Shown one piece after another: positions 34,876-64,000 of a stretch of DNA of 64,000 bases (position 1 is its first letter; every line of letters begins with the position of its first letter). Source of the stretch: Chloroflexales bacterium ZM16-3 (GTDB lineage: Bacteria; Chloroflexota; Chloroflexia; Chloroflexales; Chloroflexaceae). A program made the position numbers and the translations under genes. The notes below the pieces were generated by a model. That model was not told the DNA's origin. It made no database searches and saw only the letters and a program-made list of their open reading frames with translations. The stretch is from assembly GCA_004138175.2 (NCBI GenBank), contig RYFE02000004.1, positions 186,001-250,000 of the forward strand, in the 5' to 3' direction.

Positions 34876-35018
34876 CACTGAGCAAATGCTTGAGCCACTG
34901 CGGCGCTGAACATGGTGACTCCTTCGACTCGCACCTTTGCTCCAACAAGCTCAATCGCTCCGCTCGCCACTATAGCGCATAGGGACATTCGTAGGGGCGC
35001 GTCGCGACGCGCCCCTAC
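34876..35018. repeat. Degenerate CACTGAGC repeat followed by GTAGGG palindrome copy 3
   Basis: 34876-34914 repeats the motif at 3691-3735. The palindrome 34991-35018 (GTAGGGGCGCGTCG and its complement, perfect 28 bp) is followed by GAGGCGTTTTTG, so it can terminate plus-strand transcription. The 34874-35174 gap has no gene; besides these it carries the promoter at 35088-35117. Confidence 0.75.
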
Positions 35019-36978: not shown

Positions 36979-37006
36979 GTAGGGGCGCATCGCGATGCGC
37001 CCCTAC
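36979..37006. repeat. GTAGGG palindrome, copy 4
   Basis: Perfect 28-bp palindrome (GTAGGGGCGCATCG and its complement), four bases after the stop of the first peptidase and 22 bases before the next start. Confidence 0.85.
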
Positions 37007-37028: not shown

Positions 37029-38837
37029 ATGACGGTCGATACACAGAAGGTGCCCACTCGCGCCGAGGCCGCGCCGGAGCACACCTGGGATCTGAGCCTG
37101 ATCTTTGCGAGCGCGGAGGCATGGGATGCCGAGCTGACCGCCGTTGACGCGCTGGCGCAGCAGTTTCTGGCCATGCAGGGCACCCTCGGCCAGGGGGCGG
37201 GGCAGCTGCTCGCCGCCCTGCGCCTGCGCGACGAGGTGAGCCAGCGGCTCTGGTCGCTGTATGTGTACGCACGCCAGCTGAAGGACTCGGACGGCACCAG
37301 CCCCGCCGGGCAGGCGCTCAGCGAGCGGGCTGGCTCGTTTGCGGCCCGCACCTCGGCGGCCATGGCCTTCATCGACCCGGAGATCTTGGCCATCCCCGAG
37401 GAGACGCTGACCGCATGGGTGTCCCAGGAGGAGGGCCTGAAACTCTACGCCTACGAGCTGGAGAAGCTAAACCGGCAGCGCGCCCACATTCGCTCGGCCG
37501 AGGTCGAGGGGCTCCTGGCCCAGTTCGGCGACATCACCCGCGCGCCCTACGAGATCTTCGAGACGCTGAACAGCTCTGACATCAGCTTCCCGAGCATCGA
37601 GGACGAGCAGCGGGCCACGGTGCAGCTCTCGCACGCGCGCTACGGCCGCTATATGGAGAGCGGCGACCGGCGGGTGCGCCACGACGCCTTCAAGGGCTTG
37701 TACAACGCCTACAAGCCCTTCCGCAACACCATCGCCACCACCCTGGGCACGGCAGTGCGCACCCATGTGCTCGACGCCCGCGTGCGCAACTACAGCTCGG
37801 CCCTTGAGGCGGCCCTCAAGCCGAACGAGATCCCGCTGGATGTGTACCACAACCTGGTGGGCACGATCGAGGCCAACCTGCCGAAGCTGCACCGCTACAT
37901 GGCCATCCGCAAGAAGCTGATGGGACTGGACGACTTGAGGATCTACGATCTCTACACCCCGCCGGTGCCCGAGGTGACGATGGAGATACCCTACGCCGAG
38001 GCCCGCGAGATGGTGCTGGCGGCGTTTGCGCCGCTCGGGGAGAGCTACGGCGAGGCTCTGCGCGAGAGCTTCGGCAGCCGCTGGATCGATGTCTACGAGA
38101 ATGTGGGCAAGCGCAGCGGTGCCTACAGCGGCGGCTCCTACGGCACGCCGCCCTATATCCTGCTCAACTATCAGGATCGCCTGCATGATGTCTTCACCCT
38201 GGCCCACGAGCTGGGCCACTCGATGCACTCCTACTTCACCCGCAAGACGCAGCCCTTCCCCTATGGCAACTACACGATCTTTGTGGCTGAGGTGGCCTCG
38301 ACGCTCAACGAGACGCTGCTGACGAACTATCTGCTCAAGCACCGTGACGATGAGCAGCTGCGCAAGCGCCTGCTGGTGCAGCAGCTTGAGGATGTGCGCA
38401 CGACGATCTTCCGCCAGACAATGTTTGCCTCGTTTGAGCTTGATATGCACACCAGGGCCGAGGCTGGCGAGCCGCTGACGGCGGACGGGCTCAGCCAGCG
38501 CTACTTCGATCTGGTGGGCAGGTATCACGGCCCGGCGGTGACGCTCGACGAGGAGATCGCCTGGGAGTGGGCGCGCATCCCGCACTTCTACTACAACTAC
38601 TATGTCTACCAGTACGCCACCGGCCTCTCTGCGGCCCTGGCCCTGAGCCGACAGATTGTTGACGAGGGTCAGCCGGCGATCGACCGCTACCTGCGCTTCC
38701 TCAGCAGCGGCTCGTCCCGCTCTTCAATCGACCTGCTGCGCGGGGCGGGCGTGGATATGGCCACCACCGCGCCGATCCAGGCGGCGATGGATACCTTCGG
38801 CGGCCTGCTCGACCAGCTGGAATCACTGAGCCACTGA
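37029..38837 (+). CDS. pepF: Oligoendopeptidase F (M3 family), copy 2
   Basis: A 602-aa paralogue of the preceding enzyme with the same landmarks: PEHTWDLSLIFASAEAWDAEL start, AHELGHSMHSYFTRK zinc motif near residue 395, FVAEVASTLNETLL and YVYQYATGLSAALALSR. The copies are clearly diverged, so the duplication is not recent. AGGAGA lies before the ATG at 37029. The last residues (ESLSH) and the stop lie in the 8-bp repeat array at 38823-38948. Both genes are probably transcribed from the promoter at 35088-35117, with the palindrome between them possibly modulating the second. Confidence 0.93.
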   Translation: MTVDTQKVPTRAEAAPEHTWDLSLIFASAEAWDAELTAVDALAQQFLAMQGTLGQGAGQLLAALRLRDEVSQRLWSLYVYARQLKDSDGTSPAGQALSERAGSFAARTSAAMAFIDPEILAIPEETLTAWVSQEEGLKLYAYELEKLNRQRAHIRSAEVEGLLAQFGDITRAPYEIFETLNSSDISFPSIEDEQRATVQLSHARYGRYMESGDRRVRHDAFKGLYNAYKPFRNTIATTLGTAVRTHVLDARVRNYSSALEAALKPNEIPLDVYHNLVGTIEANLPKLHRYMAIRKKLMGLDDLRIYDLYTPPVPEVTMEIPYAEAREMVLAAFAPLGESYGEALRESFGSRWIDVYENVGKRSGAYSGGSYGTPPYILLNYQDRLHDVFTLAHELGHSMHSYFTRKTQPFPYGNYTIFVAEVASTLNETLLTNYLLKHRDDEQLRKRLLVQQLEDVRTTIFRQTMFASFELDMHTRAEAGEPLTADGLSQRYFDLVGRYHGPAVTLDEEIAWEWARIPHFYYNYYVYQYATGLSAALALSRQIVDEGQPAIDRYLRFLSSGSSRSSIDLLRGAGVDMATTAPIQAAMDTFGGLLDQLESLSH

Positions 38838-38948
38838 ATCACTGAGCCACTGAATCACTGAGCCACTGAGTCACTGAGTCACTGAATCACTGAGCCACTG
38901 AAGCGAGATTCTGTGGCTCAGTGGCTCAGTGATTCAGTGGCTCAGTGA
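38823..38948. repeat. Head-to-head array of 8-bp CACTGAG repeats, with two gene ends inside
   Basis: Ten forward units alternating TCACTGAG and CCACTGAA (38823-38902), a 6-nt spacer, then five inverted units (38909-38948). The peptidase stop (38835-38837) and the lipoprotein stop (38926-38928) both lie inside. As RNA it can fold into a long stem. Confidence 0.9.
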
Positions 38949-39975
38949 TCCCGCAGACCACGCCCTTCTCCTGGTAGTACTTCTCGACATACTGGTTATC
39001 GACGGACGTATCGAGATCCGCCGGCCGGGTGAGGATAGCCAGGCTCTTGAGGGTGGCCGCCTCGGATTCCCAAACGGTTAGGTCGCTATAGCCTGGGCAG
39101 GTCTTTCCCGCACCGTAGCTGATCAGCTTGATCGTCTCCTCGGCCTCGAAGGTGAGCTGGCCCTTGTCGAGATCCGGGTTGTAGGCGGCGATCAGATCGA
39201 CCGTTTCCCTGGGGTTATTAATGGCGTCCTGCCAGCCGTGTAGCGTAGCCTCCACGAAGGCGCGGACGGTGTCGGGGTTCTCACGGGCGAAGGTCTCGCT
39301 GGTGAAGAGCACATCGCCCATGAGCTGCACGCCGTAGTCGCGGGCGAAGATCAGGCTAATCCTGGCCCCCTCGCGGCGGGCGGTGTTGGGCTGGTCGGTG
39401 GCGTAGATCGGCCAGATGTCTGCGCGATGCTCCAGGAAGGGGGCGAGGCTGAAGTCGCCGGGGATCTCGTTGATCGTCGTGCGGTCGATGCCGGTGGCTG
39501 CCAGCATAGCGCGGTACTCGGTCTCTACATTGTCGCCGTAGAACATGCCGACCGTGTGGCCGGGGAAGTCCTGTGGCCCGGTGATCCCCGAGTCGCTATG
39601 AACCATAAAGGCCACGGGGCTGGCCTGGAACCAGGTGGCCAGGGCGACGACGTTGATGTCCTGCTCGCGGGCGGAGAGCACCGTGTCGGCGCCCGTGCTG
39701 CCGAAGGTGTCTTTGCCGGTGGCCACCAGGGGCAGGGGCACCAGGTCGGGGCCGCCGGGGTTGAGCGTCACGTCGAGGCCGGCCTGCTCGTAGTAGCCCT
39801 TGACCTTGGCGACGATGTAGCCGGCGAACTGGTATTGCGGGAACCACTGGAGGCGCATGGATACCTGGCGCAGCTCGGGGCCAGCGCTGCTTTCGGCCGG
39901 GGCGGGCGCCGGGGCGCACCCGGCGATGGCGGTGGCCAGGATGATGATCAAGAGCGGGATATGTGTGCGGTGCAT
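38926..39975 (-). CDS. THI5/NMT1-like ABC substrate-binding lipoprotein
   Basis: A 349-aa periplasmic or membrane-anchored solute-binding protein. A lipoprotein signal (LLIIILATAIAGC) is followed by LQWFPQYQFAGYIVAKVKG then YYEQAGLDV, the standard N-terminus of the SsuA/THI5 family. QDFPGHTVGMFYGDNVETEY and INEIPGDFSLAPFLEHRADIW shape the ligand pocket. Thiamine-pyrimidine precursor (ThiY), nitrate/taurine or sulfonate ligands are possible; the absence of other thi genes leaves it open. The final residues ITEPLNH and the TGA stop are encoded by the CACTGAG array. AGGAG lies before ATG 39975. A family permease gene lies 11 kb away at 50792-51607. Confidence 0.8.
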   Translation of the reverse strand: MHRTHIPLLIIILATAIAGCAPAPAPAESSAGPELRQVSMRLQWFPQYQFAGYIVAKVKGYYEQAGLDVTLNPGGPDLVPLPLVATGKDTFGSTGADTVLSAREQDINVVALATWFQASPVAFMVHSDSGITGPQDFPGHTVGMFYGDNVETEYRAMLAATGIDRTTINEIPGDFSLAPFLEHRADIWPIYATDQPNTARREGARISLIFARDYGVQLMGDVLFTSETFARENPDTVRAFVEATLHGWQDAINNPRETVDLIAAYNPDLDKGQLTFEAEETIKLISYGAGKTCPGYSDLTVWESEAATLKSLAILTRPADLDTSVDNQYVEKYYQEKGVVCGITEPLNH

Positions 39976-43927: not shown

Positions 43928-43954
43928 GTAGGGGCGCGTCATGTGCGCCCCTAC
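43928..43954. repeat. GTAGGG palindrome, copy 5 (imperfect)
   Basis: Arms GTAGGGGCGC and GCGCCCCTAC with a 7-nt centre, 10 bases from the end of the FG-GAP gene (on its 3' side). Confidence 0.75.
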
Positions 43955-62449: not shown

Positions 62450-62454
62450 CGGAA

Positions 62455-62524
62455 CACTCAATGCAAAATGCAAAGTGCAAAGTGCAAAAATTTGCATTTT
62501 GCACTTTGCATTTTGCATTGAGTG
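62455..62524. repeat. Palindromic array of 7-bp TGCAAAA units
   Basis: Forward and inverted TGCAAAA/TTTTGCA units, with mirrored ends CACTCAATGC (62455) and GCATTGAGTG (to 62524). Between the receiver stop and the epimerase start; can form a hairpin with a stem of roughly 27 bp. Confidence 0.85.
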
Positions 62525-62538
62525 TATACTTGCCGGTG

Positions 62539-63632: not shown

Positions 63633-64000
63633 ATGACTACCCCCGAGGCTCGCGCTCGCACTGAGATTGACCGTCTCCTCACCGCTGTCGGCTGGGTCGT
63701 GCAGGATCTGGCCGACCTCAACCTGACCGCTGGCGTCGGCGTGGCGGTGCGCGAGTTCCCGCTGGCCACTGGCTTCGCTGATTATCTGCTCTTTGTTGAT
63801 CGCAAGGCGATTGGCGCGGTTGAGGCCAAGAGGGTTGGCGTGCCGCTCAGCGGGGTTGAGGCGCAGTCGGCGAAGTATGGCGCTGGCCTGCCGCCGAACC
63901 TCAAGCCGTGGCGTAGGGGCGGCTCGCGAGCCGCCCCTACCGATGCCGCCCCTACATTGTCCTTCCTCTATGAGAGCACCGGCGTTGAGACCTTCGTCAC
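63633..64000 (+). CDS. HsdR-like type I restriction / helicase protein, N-terminal part
   Basis: The first 122 residues of a protein that continues past the window. Residues 1-20 (TPEARARTEIDRLLTAVGW) and DYLLFVDRKAIGAVEAKRVG contain the PD-(D/E)xK nuclease signature (Asp, Glu-x-Lys) of the HSDR N-terminal domain. QSAKYGAGLPPNLKPW and LSFLYESTGVETF are classic for this family. Between them lies a run of about 14 residues (RGGSRAAPTDAAPT) absent from what I know of the family; it is encoded by a GTAGGG palindrome (63913-63940). Start ATG 63633. A DNA methyltransferase lies 5 kb upstream. Confidence 0.8.
   Translation, partial: MTTPEARARTEIDRLLTAVGWVVQDLADLNLTAGVGVAVREFPLATGFADYLLFVDRKAIGAVEAKRVGVPLSGVEAQSAKYGAGLPPNLKPWRRGGSRAAPTDAAPTLSFLYESTGVETFV
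63913..63940. repeat. GTAGGG palindrome, copy 7, in frame inside HsdR
   Basis: Perfect 28-bp palindrome (GTAGGGGCGGCTCG and its complement), followed by an extra right-arm copy (GCCGCCCCTAC) at about 63945-63955. The reading frame is kept. Confidence 0.85.

Follow-up and report, generated by a model that had tools for sequence, protein, structure and literature searches.

An in-frame palindrome, probably of the GTAG-tagged REP kind, in the nuclease domain of HsdR

The closest described systems are the GTAG-tagged REPs, which are reported from several phyla, Chloroflexi included, in excerpts of Di Nocera, De Gregorio and Rocco (2013, PMC3733652). According to these excerpts, they are located on the 3' side of coding regions, where ORFs are convergent or in tandem, and their GTAG termini 'often provide' the flanking ORFs with a TAG stop codon; some are found inside ORFs, many of which are DNA synthesis and repair genes. 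The same excerpts give CGTC as the end of the Rickettsia palindromic element (RPE) sequences of R. conorii. The phenomenon is, hence, already known in other bacteria, and the insertion in hsdR described here adds a new and well-documented example to a known class. Among the literature matches listed, none concerns this insertion in hsdR or such palindromes in Oscillochloris. A paper by Elhai from 2008 reportedly deals with small dispersed repeats.

The window—the whole stretch of 64,000 nt that was analysed—ends within this hsdR. The whole gene (L005:4633-7425, window position 63633 onward) comprises 2793 nt including the stop codon and encodes 930 aa. One open frame carries profile matches to PF04851, PF08463, and helicase domains, and the protein is assigned to the type I R subunits of the EcoEI type because of its ResIII, helicase, and EcoEI_R_C domains; the nuclease residues of this type are likewise found. 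D50, E64, and K66 are taken by us to be the PD-(D/E)xK motif, and Q78...Y82 presumably represents the QxxxY motif. The insert consists of a perfect palindrome, a spacer, and an exact copy of the last 11 nt of the palindrome (Table 1), and the reading frame is open across palindrome and duplicated arm, the continuation of the contig included. The initial annotation had described a GTAGGG palindrome with a kept frame in an HsdR-like gene, followed by a duplicated right arm, and was right on both points, with a perfect 28-mer in an open frame of 930 aa and the 11-nt repeat in place. Its 14 extra residues are indeed encoded by the insert; however, they replace two, so the net gain amounts to 12 residues. 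At the DNA level, the gain is exactly 36 nt, or 12 codons, as judged by alignment to the paralogue and to relatives. The gain is divisible by three, and the frame in which the palindrome is translated does not contain its TAG; the gene accordingly encodes a full-length protein, longer by 12 residues. Probably, a palindrome of the GTAG-tagged REP kind has been inserted, together with a duplicated half-arm, in a loop of the HsdR nuclease domain that tolerates insertions, with a full-length protein still encoded and the insert most likely neutral.

Table 1. Coordinates of the hsdR insert, its host gene, and related features (window positions unless prefixed by L005)
Feature	Position	Strand	Basis or context
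hsdR, type I restriction enzyme R subunit, EcoEI type, first 368 nt	63633-64000	+	domains, ORF, alignment
Nuclease residues D50, E64, K66	63780-63782, 63822-63824, 63828-63830	+	invariant in 60-row alignment
Q78...Y82	63864-63878	+	invariant in 60-row alignment; helix just before insertion loop
Perfect 28-nt GTAG...CTAC palindrome GTAGGGGCGGCTCGCGAGCCGCCCCTAC, core type GCTCGCGAGC	63913-63940	.	in frame in hsdR
Spacer CGAT plus duplicated right arm GCCGCCCCTAC, together CGATGCCGCCCCTAC	63941-63955 (arm 63945-63955)	+	sequence
Family copy, core type CGTCGCGACG	34991-35018	.	outside called genes
Family copy, core type CATCGCGATG	36979-37006	.	just past a called gene
Imperfect family copy GTAGGGGCGCGTCATGTGCGCCCCTAC	43928-43954	.	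outside called genes
RAYT-like gene right after hsdR stop, then BIME-like array	L005:7426-7953 and L005:7963-8540		

The insertion in hsdR is real and is well supported by an empty paralogue. This second hsdR of the same genome, on contig C59, encodes a protein that is 92% identical and lacks the insert; its empty site reads TGGCGCAG/CCCGATGCCC, and the window copy is 36 nt longer. The same difference of 36 nt is observed toward G005 and L006 (TGGCGTAG/CCCGTTGCCT), toward G003 (TGGCGTCG/CCCGCTGCCC), and toward G040, whose hsdR likewise lacks the insert. G005 and L006, both uncultured Oscillochloris sp. KT5_bin-278, do not differ over the aligned part and probably represent one record. The tetranucleotide at the empty site is GTAG in G005, GCAG in the paralogue, and GTCG in G003. 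Palindrome-free orthologues with the same residues, the comparison on which the initial annotation had staked its proposal, were searched for in a 60-row HsdR alignment (the window protein, P0001, and 59 others) and in 75 N-terminal HsdR alignments obtained from 80 loci: The insert residues occur in none of the 59 other rows and in none of the 75 alignments. An artefact of assembly or binning, as might be suspected in a draft genome of 127 contigs with hsdR less than 7 kb from a contig end, is scarcely credible since the frame is kept exactly and both flanks align to the relatives and to the paralogue.

Alignment and AlphaFold2 model place the insert between the helix 76-84, which carries Q78 and Y82, and the strand 111-115, with D50, E64, and K66 upstream of it and the ResIII match beginning at residue 170. 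It therefore sits in a loop of the N-terminal nuclease domain and not, as initially proposed, in the nuclease–helicase linker. The model, computed from the 60-row alignment, features a mean pLDDT of 83.5 and a pTM of 0.70. Only one stretch of at least three residues, 98-102 in the insert, has a pLDDT below 50, and the lowest mean pLDDT among the first 150 residues is that of the blocks in 91-110 (64 and 63). As judged by this model, the insert occupies a low-confidence loop of the nuclease domain. The best solved relatives in Foldseek are HsdR chains (3h1t and EcoR124I HsdR), with low global TM-scores; a comparison of P0002 with the PDB sequences gave no match. The segment from Y82 to F111 comprises 15-18 residues in 58 of the 60 rows and 28 in the window protein and in L011, from an Anaerolineae MAG. 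The extra residues of L011 are unrelated in sequence to the window insert and include, at the DNA level, an inverted repeat. That these 12 residues are a further REP is not borne out by the counts, the hairpin having one exact and two one-mismatch places in its genome and the reversed control three.

The hsdR copy with the insert looks to be under purifying selection. Its dN/dS is 0.078 toward G005 and 0.123 toward the paralogue, a value from which the date of the insertion is not readable, and with G005 as outgroup it carries 20 unique amino-acid changes versus 32 in the empty paralogue. The low dN/dS and the smaller number of unique changes thus give no sign of decay over a span in which the period after the insertion is not separable. 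Because dN/dS is low, the insert most likely has little or no effect on fitness, and HsdR with the insert presumably still works. It is very improbable that this copy is becoming a pseudogene in which the insertion survives because a second, empty paralogue renders the gene dispensable. Such a paralogue does exist, at 92% identity on contig C59; however, the frame of the window copy is open over 930 codons, D50, E64, K66, Q78, Y82, and the helicase domains are retained, and both the dN/dS of 0.123 and the count of unique changes, lower than that of the paralogue, speak against decay. An adaptive insert, lowering or tuning the nuclease activity of HsdR as proposed for REPs in DNA repair genes, is somewhat easier to conceive and still quite improbable. 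The excerpts of PMC3733652 regard REPs in repair genes as perhaps not fortuitous. The host gene encodes a DNA nuclease–helicase, the loop comes after the Q78/Y82 helix, and the same loop holds a second, unrelated insert in L011. Against this stand the low confidence of the loop in the model, the constraint, which shows no sign of change by dN/dS, and the two unrelated inserts themselves, which point to tolerance; a neutral insert is the preferred reading.

The palindrome belongs to a family dispersed over the genome. The pattern GTAGGGGCG-N(2-20)-CGCCCCTAC has 109 matches in the 6.27-Mb genome and none in the reversed control; 38 copies, that of hsdR included, are letter-identical to the hsdR 28-mer, and 46 further copies match GTAGGGGCGC-NN-CGCG-NN-GCGCCCCTAC. 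With 38 identical 28-mers and 109 versus 0 matches, the hsdR palindrome is not a product of chance. GTAG at the end of a short many-copy stem-loop, a feature of GTAG-tagged REPs, is thereby found in 109 copies. The 113 core matches in the sample carry GTA/TAC at both sides (89), at one side (10), or at neither (14). The pattern is present in 36 of the 61 genomes searched, the own genome included, and the reversed control yields one match each in two of the 61. The five other members of the genus hold 4-67 copies per genome, and one genome from another genus of the same family holds 115. An Rfam gathering search of the window gave 0 matches. Other short inverted or tandem repeats (AATGCAAAGTGCAAA, CACTGAATCACTGAGC, and GGGACAGGGGACAGG) were noticed between genes and within the hsdS linker (window 62454-62525, 38832-38949, and 459-539; L005:9255-9300).

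As to the way of arrival, a dispersed palindrome akin to the GTAG-tagged REPs would have landed, with a duplicated half-arm, in the loop of the HsdR nuclease domain, presumably by transposition and perhaps 3' of a pre-existing GTAG—a course pieced together from the presence and absence of the insert. Replication slippage or template switching at GTAG, or gene conversion from another copy, might instead have produced the palindrome. The partial duplication of the arm at 63945-63955 and the extra arms that also stand on one side of other family copies, e.g., in L118, L151, L170, and L183, are in line with such an origin. It is nevertheless distinctly unlikely: The 28-mer matches 37 other copies letter for letter, so the sequence came from the family and copying of some kind is needed, and gene conversion would need flanking homology, of which no sign was noticed at the site. 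Under arrival by transposition, the hsdR copy would be one that survived within a gene.

The other insertions of this family have been retained nearly exclusively outside genes, for the most part near gene 3' ends. For this comparison, 90 of the 109 copies were examined in approximately 1.48 Mb of stretches (overlaps included), with genes called by a home-made codon-usage caller that misses some genes (hsdS and RAYT) and leaves starts uncertain. The hsdR copy is the only one of the 90 that is clearly intragenic; the doubtful copy L165:3742, which lies 18 nt inside a predicted 5' end, and L149:18808, which overlaps a 5' end, were excluded from this count. The 89 two-ended copies lie between convergent (23), tandem (64), or divergent genes (1) or are flanked by a called gene on just one side (1), and thus show the position next to 3' ends known from GTAG-tagged REPs. 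On the 111 sides that face a gene 3' end, the stop codon falls exactly on the TAG of GTAG in 42, precedes the palindrome by 3-21 nt (d 7-25) in 53, and lies elsewhere in 16, including the hsdR and L165 copies. Altogether, 33 of the 89 copies supply a stop codon, nine of them to both convergent neighbours. These nine, in which two genes end within one 28-mer, are located in L119, L120, L124, L135, L136, L165 (980), L169, L175, and L178 (16592). A frame count that does not depend on gene calls gives 56 of 179 sides at which an ORF of at least 100 codons ends at the TAG, versus 14 and 24 in the other frames. The second genus (G032; 20 stretches with 27 copies) yields 5 of 51 sides, versus 0 and 1 in the other frames, so that shared stops by ORF are rarer there; its gene calls place 0 sides at distance 0, with a caller that performed poorly in this genome.

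GTAG is, apart from the palindromes, the commonest stop tetranucleotide, at 231 of the 915 gene ends more than 60 nt from strict copies and at 129 of 506 ends in the sister species G004, whose stretches were chosen independently of copies. The overall share of 298 in 1012 ends is biased because the sample is centred on copies. Among the stop codons, TAG is the most frequent; the GC content of the genome sample is 65%.

The sister species G004 is 87% identical to this genome over the first block compared and 79-94% identical at the listed gene ends. In a comparison of 102 orthologous gene ends, the stop position is unchanged in 80. A GTAGGG stop is present at 18 ends in this genome, at 5 of which G004 carries GTAGGG too and at 13 of which it does not; at 6 ends, GTAGGG is found in G004 alone. 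Where both genomes have GTAGGG, the sequence behind it differs, e.g., at L169_6615, with GTAGGGACGGGCCTGTGTGCCCGTCCCTAC here and GTAGGGGCGCAGCGCGCTGCGCCCCCTAC in G004. The stop position is unchanged at 12 of the 18 ends, and most such stops were therefore not made by gene shortening. Among these 12 ends, G004 stops with GTAG at 6 and with TAA or TGA at the other 6. G004 thus has GTAG at 6 of the 12 ends where this genome has GTAGGG, versus 19 of 68 otherwise, and 5 of the 6 are themselves GTAGGG. Six strict sites have an orthologous flank in G004. In four of them, another hairpin stands at the same stop or close to it, and the other two have no alignable hairpin there, one lying beside a run of N; none of the six is a clean empty site such as that of hsdR. 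One reading would be that, in this genus, insertion or exchange of the symmetric, two-ended palindrome takes place specifically 3' of GTAG, above all at stops, and that a given stop is occupied again and again by different palindromes in sister species. We consider this rather unlikely. If true, one 28-mer could end two convergent genes, the insertion in hsdR would be an uncommon case in which an in-frame GTAG was hit, and the target site of a REP would be directly visible in the paralogue and the relatives.

A RAYT-like gene adjoins hsdR (NF047646, E 2.9e-19, below the curated cut-off), with hsdS coming afterwards, and the hsdR palindrome lies approximately 2.5 kb upstream of it. Four RAYT-like loci are found in the draft genome, all below the NCBIfam cut-off. 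None of the four has a full strict palindrome within approximately 1.3 kb, the nearest being at 1.4 kb, on C58; the flanking of a RAYT gene by the family, a feature of GTAG-tagged REPs, is accordingly absent from these loci of a draft genome. Hairpins with a CCTTGTG loop occur 16 times in a 1.46-Mb sample, 7 of them within approximately 1.5 kb after the RAYT that adjoins hsdR, two of these 7 inside the open frame of hsdS. This RAYT is not supported as the mobiliser of the palindrome, as its neighbourhood holds CCTTGTG-loop hairpins and not the two-ended palindrome. RAYT and CCTTGTG array together indicate a REPtron-like unit at the locus, but for another repeat. Across 61 genomes, the counts of palindrome and RAYT correlate weakly (Spearman 0.34, p 0.0075; related genomes are not independent), and three genomes with at least 5 palindrome copies have no RAYT match. 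The order hsdR–RAYT with hairpins of the CCTTGTG type also occurs in L008 (G015), from another Oscillochloris MAG, at L008:1836-2560. Past the window end, the HsdS linker between the two target-recognition domains contains in-frame repeats (L005:9240-9460, G000:C62)—GAGGGCGGGCACAAG, present three times, and GTAGGGGCGCCCCTTGTGGGCGCCC, a CCTTGTG-loop hairpin that bears GTAG at one end—and the HsdS linker of the C59 system is shorter.

For REP-like insertion, the locus offers filled and empty copies of one conserved enzyme gene within a single genome. The shared stops of the family and the turnover between species at the same stop provide material on how REPs spread and what they need as a target. 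The more interesting question is how a two-ended family comes to lie so exactly on stop codons.

The arrangement resembles the RAYT/TnpAREP REPtrons and BIMEs, as described in excerpts of PMC2817692, PMC8266576, and PMC6006769, in having a RAYT-like gene after hsdR and then a BIME-like array. It differs from them in that the neighbours of the RAYT are CCTTGTG-loop hairpins and not the two-ended palindrome. With the RPEs of Rickettsia, the hsdR insert shares the in-frame insertion of a palindrome in a protein gene with the frame kept. In contrast to their CGTC end, the ends here are GTAG and CTAC, no CGTC terminus is found, the phylum is another one, and nearly all examined copies lie outside genes, with 1 clear case of in-frame residence in 90 copies. 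The initial annotation had proposed a different element in a different phylum from the RPEs. This stands with regard to the phylum, the in-frame position, and the absence from orthologues; GTAG-tagged REPs in Chloroflexi and inside ORFs had, however, already been published, as the excerpts of PMC3733652 show. To these GTAG-tagged REPs, as far as the excerpts describe them, the family is similar in its GTAG end, its short many-copy stem-loop, its place downstream of genes in convergent and tandem arrangement in preference to divergent, its use of TAG as stop codon, its occasional in-frame genic copies, and the phylum Chloroflexi. There, the tag stands unpaired at one end, whereas here GTAG pairs with CTAC in a perfect palindrome and 89 of the 113 cores are tagged at both ends. 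Since GTAG is paired and present at both ends, the family is called a variant of GTAG-tagged REPs.
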